A DNA stretch of 64,000 bases, taken from the NCBI GenBank assembly GCA_020832235.1, contig JAFIEZ010000006.1, positions 62,001 to 126,000 on the forward strand, in the 5' to 3' direction. The notes beneath the pieces are model-generated. The model worked only from the letters and a program-made list of their open reading frames with translations. It did not search any database and had not been told where the DNA came from. Below, piece after piece: positions 55,131 through 59,641 of the stretch (position 1 is the first letter of the stretch; every line of letters begins with the position of its first letter). A program made the translations under genes and the position numbers. Source of the DNA: Bacteroidota bacterium. Its GTDB lineage: Bacteria > Bacteroidota > Rhodothermia > Balneolales > HLUCCA01.

Positions 55131-55466
55131 TTATTGAGGCAGTTTTTTAAACTCATCCCATAAGTCGCGAAGAGCATCAAACCTATATAGACCGGAGTTG
55201 TGACCGTCTCCCCAATTAATCTGGATGGCATAGTTTCCGCTTGGCTTTATGGAGCTGATACGCCAGTCACGTTCAGGTTTATTTTTGAGTACACCGGGAT
55301 CCATCCTTTTCCCCATATGTTCATGTCCACCTCTGCAAAAAACACACGGACATACTTTTCTGAGGCCCTCTAAAGGATAATGAGATGTTTCACCATCTCC
55401 CCAGACAATACTCAAAACCTGAGATGCGGTGTCAACATCAATTTCAGTTACAGTAGTTTGTTGCAT
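55131..55466 (-). CDS. DUF971 (GBBH-like N-terminal) protein
   Basis: The 111-residue product matches DUF971. It has an N-terminal strand pair with IVWGDGETSHYPLEGLRKVCPCVFCRGGHEH, with Cys-x-Cys-x2-Cys as in the zinc-binding domain of gamma-butyrobetaine hydroxylase. The closing block is AIQINWGDGHNSGLYRFDALRDL. DUF971 proteins are linked with Fe-S cluster handling (the Mrp/ApbC family) in some genomes. It is the last gene of the peptide operon, 27 bases after the thioredoxin-like lipoprotein. It may equally be an unrelated housekeeping gene with its own promoter. Confidence 0.9.
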   Translation of the reverse strand: MQQTTVTEIDVDTASQVLSIVWGDGETSHYPLEGLRKVCPCVFCRGGHEHMGKRMDPGVLKNKPERDWRISSIKPSGNYAIQINWGDGHNSGLYRFDALRDLWDEFKKLPQ

Positions 55467-55493
55467 TATTTATCTCTTTTGCTGGCATGTGTA

Positions 55494-56093
55494 CTATTCA
55501 TCTAAAAACATTCTGACATAGTAATTCAGGTTTTCATTACTCCCGACAGGTCTTATATCCCGCACTTTTCTATTCCCATCAACAAAGATTTTAAGAGGAA
55601 TTTGAAAATGCTCTACCCATTGAGTAATCAGTTTCTCTTCATCCTGATACGTACTCATGCTGTAATTATTACGAGCCACAAAGTTACGCACGTTTTTTTT
55701 AGAATCGTCAACGACAATCAATTTGATATCTGTTGTACTTTGACTGAAAGAGTCCCCTAGTTGCTTTTGACTCCATTCATTCCAAAAATCAAGTTCATCG
55801 ATACAAAATCCGCAGTAAGTGTCGTGAGTTATTAATATGAGGGTATTATTTTTAAATAATGACCTCGAGGGGTCAGATTCGCTTGTATTTTCTACGGCCA
55901 GCATTTCTACATCGGAATCAGCGTCACGATAAATCTGATCGTGGTTGAGCTCAATAGGTGTTAGCTGCGTTAAATAATCCGTTAAAAGGTTTATGTCTAT
56001 TAGCTTTTCATAACCGTTGAACTGGCTTTTGTCGCAAGATAGTATCAGAGCCGCACAAAAAAATAACGATAAGGTAAACTTTCTAGTTAACAT
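55494..56093 (-). CDS. thioredoxin-like lipoprotein (CGFC) of the peptide operon
   Basis: The product has 199 residues from the ATG at 56093, which gives a lipoprotein signal ending ILSC (lipid Cys at 20). An 11-codon longer frame is less likely. DTYCGFCIDELDFWNEW places a CGFC redox pair at 94-97, preceded by a hydrophobic strand (LILITH). Later blocks (IKLIVVDDSKKNVRNFV, LKIFVDGNRKVRDIRPVG) fit a thioredoxin fold of the TlpA/AhpC type without the typical cis-Pro context. The CGFC pair could form or reduce disulfides of the twin-CX3C peptide. It overlaps the permease gene by 11 bases. Confidence 0.72.
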   Translation of the reverse strand: MLTRKFTLSLFFCAALILSCDKSQFNGYEKLIDINLLTDYLTQLTPIELNHDQIYRDADSDVEMLAVENTSESDPSRSLFKNNTLILITHDTYCGFCIDELDFWNEWSQKQLGDSFSQSTTDIKLIVVDDSKKNVRNFVARNNYSMSTYQDEEKLITQWVEHFQIPLKIFVDGNRKVRDIRPVGSNENLNYYVRMFLDE

Positions 56094-56856
56094 GCTTGAA
56101 ATCTTTACGATTGAACAGAATACCATTAAGTATTATAAGTGCAGATGTAATAATAGCCCCCTTAAAAAATAGCTCTCTTTGAATAAAGCCTCTGCTAATA
56201 ATATTCTCTCTGAAGGTATCAAGGCTGATATAGAAAGACACCAACTGCTCTAAAAAATAAACGCCATCTCCTAATAAGGGTATGTTGCCTGTATAACCAC
56301 TTAAAACTCTAAAAATGGCCGGTAAAATGAATAGCACAAAAACCAACAGTGGAATTGAGACAAGTTTAAGCCTGCTAAAGTAGGTAATACTGATTAGTAC
56401 TACAGCCAGTGCGAGCCCTCCAAAGACTTTCGAAGAGTAAGCAAACAATATGCTGTAAAGGTTAAAACCAGCTTTGATATATAAGTAAAGGTAACCGCTG
56501 GTGCTAATTAAAATTAATCCCAGAACTACTCCAAAGAATCCTGCAAAGTATTGTATTCGATTTTGATGCCGTGCAAGGTATATACAGGCTAGTTGGCTAC
56601 TTAGTACCTTATCGGATAGACTCAACGTTATAATTACTATGAGCAGTCCTAACAGGAGCTCAAAAATAGATAAGGATGCAGTGAGTATTCTCAGAGGCAT
56701 CGATAAGTTTCCGATAGATATAATCGCGTTTGGCCCTGTACCGTCGATGCTTGTCATTAGAACAAATAGCCAGGTCAGAGCCCCCAGCATCATGAGCAAC
56801 CAAAAAGAAAGTAATGCTTTCAAGACGAGCAGGTTTAGTCTTATTGCAGACTTCAT
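56083..56856 (-). CDS. ABC transporter permease of the peptide operon
   Basis: The 257-residue membrane protein has six probable helices, at about 11-35, 48-78, 103-128, 134-155, 161-182 and 227-247. The loops are short, except between helices 5 and 6. Overall it resembles ABC-2 or NosY-type permeases, but I see no family-defining motif. It overlaps the ATPase gene by 4 bases and the thioredoxin-like gene by 11, so the three are one translational unit. The combination suggests export or membrane release of a substrate rather than uptake, as no binding protein of the classic type is encoded. Confidence 0.8.
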   Translation of the reverse strand: MKSAIRLNLLVLKALLSFWLLMMLGALTWLFVLMTSIDGTGPNAIISIGNLSMPLRILTASLSIFELLLGLLIVIITLSLSDKVLSSQLACIYLARHQNRIQYFAGFFGVVLGLILISTSGYLYLYIKAGFNLYSILFAYSSKVFGGLALAVVLISITYFSRLKLVSIPLLVFVLFILPAIFRVLSGYTGNIPLLGDGVYFLEQLVSFYISLDTFRENIISRGFIQRELFFKGAIITSALIILNGILFNRKDFKHVN

Positions 56857-57626
56857 CGTTCACCTCCATACAATACATGATACAATTCTGATATAGTATC
56901 AGCGGGTCTATTTTGAAGCAATTGATTGATTTTAAGCTTCATGTTTTCTTCAACCTCATCCAGGTATGTTATTTCATAACCGCTTAATCTAAGCTTAATG
57001 GAACCGTTTTTAATGAAAAAAGAAGCGTCAGTCACTGTATCCAGATCATAAAGGATGTGGGTAGACAAGATAACAGTTAAACCATGCTCTACTTTTGATT
57101 TCAGAAAATTCAATAATCTAGTCCTGTCGATTGTATCTAGCCCTTCCAGGGGTTCATCCAGAACCAGAACATTTGGATTACCTGCCAGGGCTCCGATCAT
57201 GCCTACTTTTTTTTGCATTCCTTTCGACAATTTGGTTATAGGCTTATCTATGTATTCAGCAACGTTGAACAACTCAATAAACTCATTTGCGTATGAGTTG
57301 TTGGTATCGTCAGCAACCATTAAGCCAATTAACTGACGACATGTAAAACTTCCCGGCAAGTCAACAATCTCGGGTACATAACCCATTGCTATATCACTAT
57401 CAGAGTAATCTACACTTCCATTACTTGGGTGAATTAATCTTGTAATCAGCTTAATGAACGTGCTTTTCCCAGACCCGTTTGGACCAACAAGGCAAATAAA
57501 CTGACCTTTTCCGATTTGTATGCTGGTAGGATGCAAAGAGAAACTGTTTCGTTGATATCGTTTCTCCGTATTTGATAGTGTAATAATTGGGTTTAAAGTG
57601 GTATCAGATGGGTTTTGATGTTTCAT
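56853..57626 (-). CDS. ABC transporter ATP-binding protein of the peptide operon
   Basis: The 257-residue product has Walker A GPNGSGKST at 48-56, the signature LSKGMQKKVG at 133-142, Walker B VLVLDEPLEGLD at 153-164 and the H-loop His190. GMQKK in the signature and the short length are typical of ABC-2 export ATPases (NosF, CcmA-like or bacteriocin-immunity type). The gene starts inside the last codons of the propeller lipoprotein gene and overlaps the permease by 4 bases. Confidence 0.93.
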   Translation of the reverse strand: MKHQNPSDTTLNPIITLSNTEKRYQRNSFSLHPTSIQIGKGQFICLVGPNGSGKSTFIKLITRLIHPSNGSVDYSDSDIAMGYVPEIVDLPGSFTCRQLIGLMVADDTNNSYANEFIELFNVAEYIDKPITKLSKGMQKKVGMIGALAGNPNVLVLDEPLEGLDTIDRTRLLNFLKSKVEHGLTVILSTHILYDLDTVTDASFFIKNGSIKLRLSGYEITYLDEVEENMKLKINQLLQNRPADTISELYHVLYGGER

Positions 57627-58548
57627 TTCCCGTAAGTCGTTCTAATGGATAGTAGTAAATGGATTCATCTCTGGATCCGAAGATTCCACTTGGTCTAATC
57701 ACAGCAGTATCAAGATCTTCTTTGAGTTTAATCTTTAATGTCGGCTCTCCGCGTACGTTTGTAAGTATTACGGTAAAGCGTTCATCTTCTTTTGAAAGTT
57801 GAATTATTTGGTCGTCAAATAACTCCCCACCCAACCACACAGGCCCTTCGGGTACTTCAAGTGTTCCCACTCTTCGCAATGGTGGCCTGGTATCAAGGTG
57901 TTCGTAAATTATCCTTGAAGTGGTGCCGGTTGCTTTGTCAAACAAAGTGCTTCTGTTAGTAAATATGTGGTTGATCAGAATCGTGTTTTCGTATACAGTC
58001 AGGTGTGCTATACCGAATTCAGGCCTTCTGGTTGTCTCGATGTGTAAGTAATCGGGCAGGTCAAAGGTATTTTTGTCGTACCGTAAAAGCGACCATCCAT
58101 CCATTGTCAAATGTGTAGCATAGGCAATACCGGGAATGGTAAAATCGATATCAACCAGTGACTCTTTGATGACAAACTCACGAACTAAGTTTAGCTGCCC
58201 ATCCAATACAACTACCTTTCTTGCTATGTTATCAAATACATACAGGTAGTTGCCATCGAACTGAAGTTTGCTAATTCGTTGAAACTCGGATGGGCCAAAA
58301 CCACTCCCCCCCACGGACGCTATAATTTCATTTTCCCTATTAATCTTGTATATGTTGAGATTGCTTTCACTAATTGCGTAGCGATAGGGTTCAACGGATA
58401 TTGTTTGCCAGGCTCGATATTTGTTTTCGGGTATGTCCTCATCAAATATGGCACTAACGTAAATAACCGGTACTTCAAATTCACTTTTGCTGTTACAAGA
58501 AAAGCTAGTAATTAAGAGAAATGACGCTAAGTAGTATATCGTTTTCAT
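57604..58548 (-). CDS. six-bladed beta-propeller lipoprotein of the peptide operon
   Basis: The 314-residue product has a lipoprotein-like signal ending SFSC (Cys18). The mature part has repeated blades with patterns such as GGSGFGPSEFQRISKLQFDGNYLYVFDN and KVVVLDGQLNLVREF, typical of NHL/6-bladed propeller (BF3164-like) proteins. In Bacteroidota, such lipoproteins often stand next to genes for small cell-surface peptides (NVEALA type), which fits the adjacent twin-CX3C peptide. It may bind the peptide or a surface partner. The ABC ATPase gene starts 23 bases before its end. Confidence 0.75.
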   Translation of the reverse strand: MKTIYYLASFLLITSFSCNSKSEFEVPVIYVSAIFDEDIPENKYRAWQTISVEPYRYAISESNLNIYKINRENEIIASVGGSGFGPSEFQRISKLQFDGNYLYVFDNIARKVVVLDGQLNLVREFVIKESLVDIDFTIPGIAYATHLTMDGWSLLRYDKNTFDLPDYLHIETTRRPEFGIAHLTVYENTILINHIFTNRSTLFDKATGTTSRIIYEHLDTRPPLRRVGTLEVPEGPVWLGGELFDDQIIQLSKEDERFTVILTNVRGEPTLKIKLKEDLDTAVIRPSGIFGSRDESIYYYPLERLTGNETSKPI

Positions 58549-58551
58549 AGA

Positions 58552-58579
58552 ATAAAAATTAGGGCCCCCGATTTGCCCT
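58552..58579 (-). terminator. hairpin between the peptide and propeller genes, possible attenuator
   Basis: On the minus strand AGGGC pairs with GCCCT around a nine-base loop and is followed by AATTTTTATT. Its position, 13 bases after the peptide stop and 4 before the propeller ATG, fits partial termination so that the peptide is made in excess. The stem is only 5 bp. Confidence 0.5.
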
Positions 58580-58591
58580 GTTAATCATTAT

Positions 58592-58828
58592 TTATCTAAA
58601 TAACTGGAAAAAATCACTTACCAGTATTATGTAGCAGTCGCTTGCACAAGCAACTCTGCGGAGTGAATTTGGTTCTGTGCGTTCAACGCAAGACTCAACA
58701 CAATCCACATATGTTTCAACTGGCCCTTTTGTAATCTCAGTTGTGGCTTCCTGTTCTTCCGCAAACACGGTAGCTGAAAAAGAAGCTAAAATGAGTCCGG
58801 CCGCTAAAAAGGTTCTAATTTTTTTCAT
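58592..58828 (-). CDS. small secreted twin-CX3C peptide (possible pre-peptide of a new system)
   Basis: The 78-residue product has a Sec signal of 23 residues (KKIRTF, hydrophobic core, VFA cleavage). The mature part is about 55 residues. It begins acidic and then has CVESC (43-47), 13 residues, CASDC (61-65) and a hydrophobic C-terminus. CX3C-X13-CX3C is the spacing of helical-hairpin folds held by two disulfides (small Tim chaperones, plant alpha-hairpinins); similarity by descent is not claimed. A strong AAAGGAG ribosome site lies 7 bases upstream, unusual in this window. It leads an operon with a propeller, an ABC exporter and a CGFC lipoprotein. Confidence 0.75.
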   Translation of the reverse strand: MKKIRTFLAAGLILASFSATVFAEEQEATTEITKGPVETYVDCVESCVERTEPNSLRRVACASDCYIILVSDFFQLFR

Positions 58829-58835
58829 AGTAATT

Positions 58836-58843
58836 CTCCTTTT
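58836..58843 (-). promoter_or_regulatory. strong Shine-Dalgarno site of the twin-CX3C peptide gene
   Basis: On the minus strand AAAAGGAG lies 7 bases upstream of the ATG at 58828. Most genes in this window have only weak purine stretches, so this supports high expression of the peptide and fixes its start. Confidence 0.75.
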
Positions 58844-58999
58844 GTTTAGTTATTGATTTTTGCCGGTATCAGTTTCTGTTTTGCTGGCACAAGATTAAAA
58901 AGAAGAGGATTATTTTAGCAAGTACTATTACTACGAAATTTGTGTACGGAAAATATGAATTTAATTACCTTATATAAGGCATTGTTATTTATATGTTTA

Positions 59000-59152
59000 C
59001 AAAAAGAAGGAAAAATATTTACAAAAAAATGAGATTTTCATTGTAATAAATCAGCTTTTAAACACTCTATATAACTGCAGCTGTCCAAAATATGGATGCT
59101 GTAAACTTAGCTACTACAACCGGGACTGGCCGTAAGGTCAGTCCTTTTTTGT
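59000..59152 (+). ncRNA. candidate small RNA ending in a strong terminator
   Basis: A transcript must end at 59123-59150, yet no credible gene lies upstream on this strand. The region 59000-59122 is A+T-rich and could be a small RNA, or encode a 20-residue peptide from the ATG at 59092 whose stop lies at the T-run. The 5' end is not determined. It may act in cis on the neighbouring operons. Confidence 0.3.
59123..59150 (+). terminator. plus-strand terminator upstream of the HTH gene
   Basis: GGACTGGCC pairs with GGTCAGTCC (one G-T pair) around a GTAA tetraloop and is followed by six T. No annotated gene precedes it on the plus strand. Confidence 0.85.
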
Positions 59153-59266
59153 AGTCATGAGCATGTTTTTTTGATGTTTACGGAGTGCAAATAAAACCGT
59201 CAATTAGTGTGTGCATGCATCTCGTAACAATCAAGAGCATCGAAACTATCTGTAGTTAAAATAGAT

Positions 59267-59641
59267 GTGAACAAAAATTGTGATAAAAAGATGAATAAAC
59301 TGAGAATAGCTTTAGCGAATGAAGTTTTATTTCAAAACTTAAATCAGATAAGAACCGTCAACGAATGGGCCAACCTAATGGGCTGGGAGCGGTCTGATTT
59401 TTCCAGGTCGTATCGCCGTATGTTTTCCATTACGGCTAAAAAAAAGTTAAATAGAGAGAAGATTCGTTTAATTGAGCAATTATTCGGTGAACAGCCCTCG
59501 GCCAAATGTTATGAAATTGCATATGAAACAGGCTTTAAAGATGAAAAGGCGCTATACGATTATTTGAGATACCACGAACTTGTAAACGTTAGTCGATTCA
59601 GAGAGCGATTTCAACAAGCGGGTCAAATAAGTAGGCGTTGA
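59267..59641 (+). CDS. small AraC-type HTH protein, probable regulator of the peptide operon
   Basis: The 124-residue product is essentially an AraC/HTH_18 DNA-binding domain alone. The first HTH is VNEWANLMGWERSDFSRSYRRMF, and the second is in CYEIAYETGFKDEKALYDYLRYHE. No sensor domain is visible. The frame opens with GTG at 59267; an ATG at 59291 removes 8 residues and is equally possible. It is transcribed divergently from the peptide operon, 438 bp away, which suggests it controls that operon. Single-domain AraC proteins often work with a membrane-surface signal or a partner. Confidence 0.7.
   Translation: MNKNCDKKMNKLRIALANEVLFQNLNQIRTVNEWANLMGWERSDFSRSYRRMFSITAKKKLNREKIRLIEQLFGEQPSAKCYEIAYETGFKDEKALYDYLRYHELVNVSRFRERFQQAGQISRR

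Follow-up and report, generated by a model that had tools for sequence, protein, structure and literature searches.

A 64,000-nucleotide window of genomic DNA from a Bacteroidota bacterium (order Balneolales; assembly GCA_020832235.1, contig JAFIEZ010000006.1, positions 62,001 to 126,000) carries a minus-strand operon that encodes, in this order, a small cysteine-rich peptide with a Sec signal, a beta-propeller lipoprotein, an ABC ATPase, an ABC permease and a thioredoxin-like lipoprotein, next to a divergent gene for a single-domain AraC-type protein. Judging from its sequence relatives, this operon belongs to a so far undescribed type of cassette, in which the peptide, the propeller and the ABC pair occur together. 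The open reading frames (ORFs) and their order were first called in a sequence-only reading of the window, and all of them are present as described. That reading knew of no named system with this composition, which still holds: neither the peptide nor the permease is covered by a family in Pfam, NCBIfam or PADLOC, and the PADLOC defence families give generic matches to the ABC ATPase only. Within the literature collection searched, which does not cover papers outside it, the gene set is undescribed.

The cassette recurs across genera, families and two classes. In total, 22 loci with 23 cassettes were found in 20 Bacteroidota genomes, belonging to the family of the window (f1), to two other Rhodothermia families (Balneolaceae, f3, and a further family, f5) and to another class, that of genome G004; the names Balneolales, Balneolaceae and Rhodothermia for these relatives are our presumption from kinship labels and general knowledge. 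A profile of the AraC-type protein led to two Balneolaceae loci (L107 and L163) that hold an AraC gene, one or more twin-CX3C peptides, a propeller, an ABC ATPase and a permease in the same order. Profile A7, made from the three peptides of these two loci only, retrieved eight loci not seen before when run against 245 class genomes, and extended peptide profiles added further ones, both across the phylum and within the class of G004. Matches of profile A1 outside f1 were weak (E > 0.003) and were treated as noise. The propeller gene comes after the peptide gene in all 23 cassettes, and the ABC ATPase and permease follow in every cassette that is not interrupted by a contig end; at one locus (L181), the ATPase is present, and the place of the permease is taken by two proteins left unscored by the permease profile. 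Conservation of the peptide outside this genome had been set beforehand as a test, and the peptide was found in 20 genomes in all.

The association also emerges when the peptide is left out of the search. A permease profile detected loci in 11 of 129 genomes of the order, ten of which carry the peptide (the overlap of genomes has a P of about 5e-13, a value that overstates the strength of the association because genomes are taken as independent and the profile was made from ten known cassettes). The eleventh, in genome G332, is decayed: its ABC ATPase and permease genes follow a propeller gene that is truncated, and the peptide is missing. No intact cassette lacking the peptide was found with this profile among the 129 genomes; an operon that is regularly free of the peptide, the observation that would speak against a peptide system, was not seen. 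Among 85 loci with the AraC gene, a propeller–ABC junction is present in five of the seven that carry a twin-CX3C peptide, versus none of the 78 that do not (Fisher P 6e-7). The two apparent exceptions are genome G298, which does have the ABC gene, in a frame overlooked by the gene caller, and L092, a locus with a double-glycine leader where a very cysteine-rich ORF matches the motif by composition. The cassette can also be multiplied: genome G092 has two peptides in one cassette, and genome G589 holds two complete cassettes in tandem (L206:6950-15596). In the first of the latter, the peptide has no readable signal, with stops upstream, and the thioredoxin frame is split.

The peptide of the window, read directly from the sequence, comprises 78 amino acids (58592..58828, minus strand). 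Residues 1-23 (58760-58828) form a Sec-type signal (MKKIRTFLAAGLILASFSATVFA^E), assigned by eye like the lipoboxes mentioned below, and the core reads CX3C-X13-CX3C, with cysteines at positions 43, 47, 61 and 65. Orthologues occur in three further f1 genomes (G223, G299 and G298), and the f1 peptides retain the four core cysteines. Outside f1, all but three peptides follow the pattern C-x6-C-x3-C-x(10-17)-C-x3-C-x6-C, the exceptions being L178 (four cysteines), L204 (outer cysteines shifted) and L207 (CX4C as the second pair). The f1 profile aligns with that of the six-cysteine peptides with an hhalign probability of 94 (E 8e-8), to which the signal peptide contributes part. The mature peptides are neutral to acidic, with net charges from 0 to -9, and a loop YxGDxxxDxxxR is conserved in those of f3 and f5. 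Structure prediction had been proposed as a check, and for the window peptide alone AlphaFold (AF2) returns a confident helical hairpin (helices 36-50 and 56-77, pLDDT about 93-95), which is predicted to be stapled by inner and outer disulfides; the geometry of the hairpin suggests outer pairing of C1 with C4 and inner pairing of C2 with C3. Mitochondrial small Tim chaperones are likewise helical hairpins with twin CX3C motifs, spaced by 11-17 residues and oxidised after import. They share the twin CX3C and the predicted hairpin fold with the cassette peptide; Tims are eukaryotic, and no sequence match to them was found. No solved structure resembles the peptide significantly by profile or by fold (Foldseek), and matches of the peptide profile to haemagglutinin HA2 entries in the PDB were discarded as chance, having vanished with a wider profile. 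In one genome (G333, L183:5640-5960), the peptide frame is broken at a T run in the signal region, either by an assembly slip or by a phase-variable homopolymer.

Peptide and propeller genes are separated by 43 bp, and this gap holds a terminator-like stem-loop followed by a T run (58551..58580, minus strand; CAGGGC..GCCCTA, then ATTTTTATT). Compared with dinucleotide shuffles, the junction folds at z < -2 in 13 of 20 cassettes (mean z -3.1), as would be expected if the peptide were made in excess over the downstream proteins. The hairpin of the window itself is present but weak (z -1.2), and the stem-loop sequences differ between genera. A simple count of terminator patterns (18 seen, 8.75 expected) proved too loose, and the comparison with shuffles was used in its place.

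Downstream of this junction the frames are tightly packed. The propeller lipoprotein (57604..58548, minus strand, 314 amino acids) overlaps the ABC ATPase (56853..57626, minus strand, 257 amino acids) by 23 bp, the ATPase overlaps the permease (56083..56856, minus strand, 257 amino acids) by 4 bp, and the permease overlaps the thioredoxin-like gene; the overlapping frames that had been ascribed to the whole operon hold for these three junctions and not for the peptide–propeller gap or for the 27 bp between the last cassette gene and the DUF971 gene that follows it. A profile of the propeller and its cassette relatives (A9) matches NHL propellers in the PDB, the best being 6d69 (5.4e-18); the window propeller alone falls below the Pfam threshold for DUF5128. 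The propellers of the other class have ordinary signal peptides and no lipobox, and the display of the peptide at the cell surface that had been ascribed to the propeller is therefore unsupported, a periplasmic site being the more general one. A plasmid search with an f5 propeller gave no match.

The ATPase of the window is recognised by Pfam (ABC_tran, 6.4e-22), its Walker A (GPNGSGKS), signature (LSKGM) and Walker B (VLVLDEP) motifs appear intact by eye, and its structural relatives include NosF (4e-21) and PmtC (7e-21). Bacteriocin exporters of the PCAT type combine a double-glycine leader with a peptidase-ABC protein; the cassette has neither, the peptide carrying a Sec signal and the ATPase no fused peptidase or membrane domain. 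The permease, with six transmembrane segments, was modelled with AF2 at a pLDDT of 71 and a pTM of 0.67, and its fold is predicted to be ABC-2-like; the best Foldseek match is PmtCD (probability 1.00, E 0.012), followed by ABCA7 and NosDFYL. Homology between the f1 and f3 permeases is indirect, because each matches the permeases found in the other class (5e-7 and 1e-5, respectively) and a direct comparison of their profiles fails (E 0.49). Several loci of the other class have two permeases and one ATPase.

The remaining components are recurrent and not universal. The thioredoxin-like CGFC lipoprotein of the window (55494..56126, minus strand, with a likely start at 56093 judged from the lipobox; NCBIfam ResA 5.5e-5) closes the operon in three of the four f1 genomes that have it and is missing in the fourth (G299); the CGFC motif itself is not kept, reading CRFC in G223 and CGAC in G298. 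The gene is absent from the f3 and f5 cassettes, while a CxxC thioredoxin follows the propeller in seven of seven loci of the other class, where it is sometimes fused to MauE, a protein with a presumed role in forming disulfides (PMC7794033) and recognised in L192 at 2.7e-16 (Pfam). The thioredoxins of f1 and of the other class show no detectable homology by profile comparison, and therefore only an analogous role can be claimed for them. It follows that the expected co-occurrence of the peptide with propeller, ABC and CGFC genes is borne out for the first two, the CxxC thioredoxin being confined to part of the lineages, and that folding of the peptide by the CGFC protein, as had been proposed, finds no support.

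Much the same applies to the regulator. The divergent AraC-type gene (59267..59641, plus strand) lies beside the operon as reported, and its single helix-turn-helix domain scores 31.9 bits against HTH_18 (1.6e-7), slightly below the Pfam cut-off of 33.6; of the genes at this locus, Pfam and NCBIfam put a name to the ATPase, to DUF971 and, with little strength, to this domain, and to no others. The intergenic region of 58829..59266 is the presumed control region, a reading from the sequence only; no repeat shared across species was found in it, and the repeats detected were weak. AraC genes adjoin all f1 and most f3 cassettes (L193 lacks one) and are absent from f5 and from the other class, where a LuxR-type gene stands upstream of two cassettes. 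AraC is not a general part of the system, its link to the cassette being restricted to Balneolales. The single-domain family as such is Balneolales-wide (57 of 196 class genomes by the AraC profile). In family f51 (L086-L089, L114 and L118), it is found at a single conserved site next to a gene for a XerC-like recombinase, and neither a peptide nor a propeller lies close by; elsewhere, members of the AraC family flank peptides with leaders of the double-glycine kind and PCAT-type or other ABC exporters (L108, L109 and L092).

Within f1, the operon is syntenic in four of five genomes, G000 (the window), G223, G299 and G298. In the fifth (G297, L104:7505-8923), the AraC gene is kept, the peptide operon is missing and its place is taken by unrelated ORFs as far as the end of the contig. 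Between G000 and G223, the identity of the cassette proteins is 49% for the peptide, 33% for the propeller, 40% for the ABC ATPase, 31% for the permease, 34% for the thioredoxin and 46% for AraC; compared with the 68-92% of the flanking genes, this range of 31-49% implies that the set diverges fast while the locus stays in place.

What the cassette does is a matter of weighing. We favour, at a probability of roughly 40%, a secreted-peptide cassette whose peptide would be used on other cells and whose producer would be protected from it. In such a scheme, the peptide would cross the inner membrane by Sec and be oxidised in the envelope by the thioredoxin or MauE partner or by housekeeping enzymes; the propeller would recognise the oxidised peptide, and propeller and ABC pair together would remove it from the periplasm or the inner membrane. 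Owing to the stem-loop behind its gene, more of the peptide would be made than of the proteins that handle it. We infer secretion, oxidation, propeller binding and protection; the protection would resemble that given by the staphylococcal transporter PmtABCD, which exports phenol-soluble modulins (PSMs), short amphipathic helical peptides, and confers immunity on the producer (PMC5354552). Like Pmt, the cassette has a short, probably ABC-2-like permease and a separate ATPase, and the permease model is nearest to PmtCD. Unlike the cassette, with its one ATPase and one permease, Pmt comprises two of each, belongs to Gram-positive bacteria, takes leaderless substrates from the cytoplasm and works with neither a propeller nor a thioredoxin. 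Action on other cells combined with clearance or producer protection is favoured because of the patchy presence of the cassette, its rapid divergence, the tandem cassettes of G589, the two peptides of G092 and the hairpin that points to excess product; as the role on other cells, antagonism appears more likely than signalling.

It is important to point out that several observations weigh against this reading. The charge of the mature peptides differs from that of typical cationic antimicrobial peptides, and the cassette encodes no route across the outer membrane; both weaken the case for a classical antimicrobial. The Sec signal already places the peptide in the periplasm, so that the ABC pair is not needed for crossing the inner membrane and an exporter role would be superfluous. 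Foldseek support is modest, the E value of 0.012 for the permease being the best and the peptide having none, and the thioredoxin is missing from the f3 and f5 cassettes. The role may instead be one in signalling or in envelope maturation.

The strongest rival, which also fits but is in our judgement less likely, is an envelope machine of the NosDFY kind, in which the propeller would dock on the permease and ATP would drive the folding, loading or delivery of a peptide that is kept in the envelope and serves a structural, metal-handling or chaperone function. NosDFY(L) likewise joins a type V-like ABC pair to a lipoprotein and a beta-rich periplasmic partner, the permease model also matches NosY and the ATPase NosF, export by Sec fits such a task, and the MauE and thioredoxin partners suggest maturation work; the acidic peptides and the f3/f5 loop would suit a binding role. 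However, NosD is a beta-helix (CASH) and not an NHL-type propeller, and the Nos system has no small cysteine-rich peptide and serves nitrous oxide reductase in the assembly of its copper site, whereas no conserved substrate enzyme adjoins the cassette; none of the neighbouring genes inspected around the cassettes was recognisable as NosZ, although no NosZ profile was run. A set that is present in 11 of 129 genomes of the order and diverges fast is ill-suited to housekeeping maturation, and the terminator-like hairpin again suggests excess product.

We consider it improbable that the peptide is a pheromone, released and then perceived by way of the propeller and the ABC pair, with feedback on the AraC-type regulator. 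The regulator does adjoin the f1 and most f3 cassettes, two cassettes of the other class have a LuxR-type gene upstream, and the same AraC family flanks other propeller–peptide pairs; but the AraC protein consists of a DNA-binding domain only and has no obvious input, it is missing from the f5 cassettes and from L193, and there is no kinase or anti-sigma partner to join envelope and cytoplasm.

Still less probable is a lone, broadly acting antimicrobial of the alpha-hairpinin type with a general drug pump as its neighbour. Plant alpha-hairpinins are helix-loop-helix peptides with a CX3C-Xn-CX3C motif (PMC11591084), and their four-cysteine form, with a spacer of 4-20 residues, is matched by the cassette peptides (with a spacer of X13 in the window peptide and of X10-X17 in the others, and CX4C in a single member), as is the helix-loop-helix shape in the AF2 prediction; the top fold match of the peptide, non-significant, is a vicilin-derived hairpin. 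Alpha-hairpinins are usually cationic, however, against a net charge of 0 to -9 here, and their six-cysteine form is CX3CX3C..CX3CX3C instead of Cx6Cx3C..Cx3Cx6C; neither sequence nor fold gives a significant match that would argue for homology, and the ABC pair belongs specifically to the cassette and is no general pump. A chance meeting of an unrelated small exported ORF with a propeller–ABC operon, which the shortness of the peptide and its lack of a database family might suggest, is refuted by the co-occurrence tests and by a cysteine pattern and gene order kept across 22 loci, the majority of which were retrieved with nothing but the peptide profile.

Systems in which ABC proteins are dedicated to the handling of a secreted peptide are already known as a kind; the present composition is new. 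Taken more broadly, and with considerable reserve, the cassettes may represent a phylum-wide, unnamed class of disulfide-stapled twin-CX3C hairpins that are exported by Sec, served by a dedicated periplasmic NHL propeller and a type V-like ABC machine, and employed by Bacteroidota to compete or communicate with one another. They would then belong to a wider set of cysteine-peptide, propeller and MauE loci, of which many adjoin members of the same family of single-domain AraC proteins. To our knowledge, the secreted peptides of the Balneolales and Rhodothermia side of the phylum have hardly been studied. If the propeller–ABC machine acts on a peptide that has already been exported, it could form a new class, with an unusual use of ABC proteins and a new route of protection or maturation in Gram-negative bacteria. 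Members in other genomes can be found by the rule Cx6Cx3C-x10-17-Cx3Cx6C plus propeller plus ABC.

Loci of the NVEALA/BF3164 type, in which a small exported peptide is encoded beside a six-bladed propeller, occur in Bacteroidota. Their peptides have a different cysteine pattern, and such loci lack the ABC pair here, the one examined (L110) carrying MauE and an S26 peptidase; the 154-amino-acid gene after its propeller, at one point taken for a thioredoxin, is in fact this peptidase. The hairpin peptides have no NVEALA-like motif at the boundary of leader and core and no Pfam NVEALA match. The connection drawn to these loci in the sequence-only reading holds in so far as cysteine-containing NVEALA-like peptides with propellers lie beside paralogues of the same AraC protein, and does not go beyond resemblance. 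Nine Balneolaceae loci (L083, L091, L102, L110, L111, L120, L121, L138 and L162) show this arrangement, with peptides of about 85-100 amino acids, often 'AYAGPC..C..C..C', and an NHL propeller; several of these adjoin an RND-type efflux operon. Directly behind the hairpin cassette of genome G074 (L205:10631-13479) lies a second set comprising a MauE-like protein, a different cysteine-rich peptide, a thioredoxin-like protein and a propeller, and two peptide types therefore share component families in one locus. Genome G363 (L106:4047-4289) has an AraC-linked twin-CX6C peptide followed by a propeller, with no ABC gene in the contig, perhaps a further variant of the hairpin.

Finally, the DUF971 gene (GBBH-like_N; 55131-55466, Pfam 1e-23), which starts 27 bp downstream of the CGFC gene and had been counted as the end of the operon, is better regarded as a flanking gene. 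It is conserved like the flanks (68-73%, with 68% between G000 and G223) and is separated from the cassette by rmuC in G299, and it was ruled out as a component on these grounds. The cassette is flanked by prfC and an M28-like peptidase gene on one side and by DUF971 and an M14-like peptidase gene on the other.

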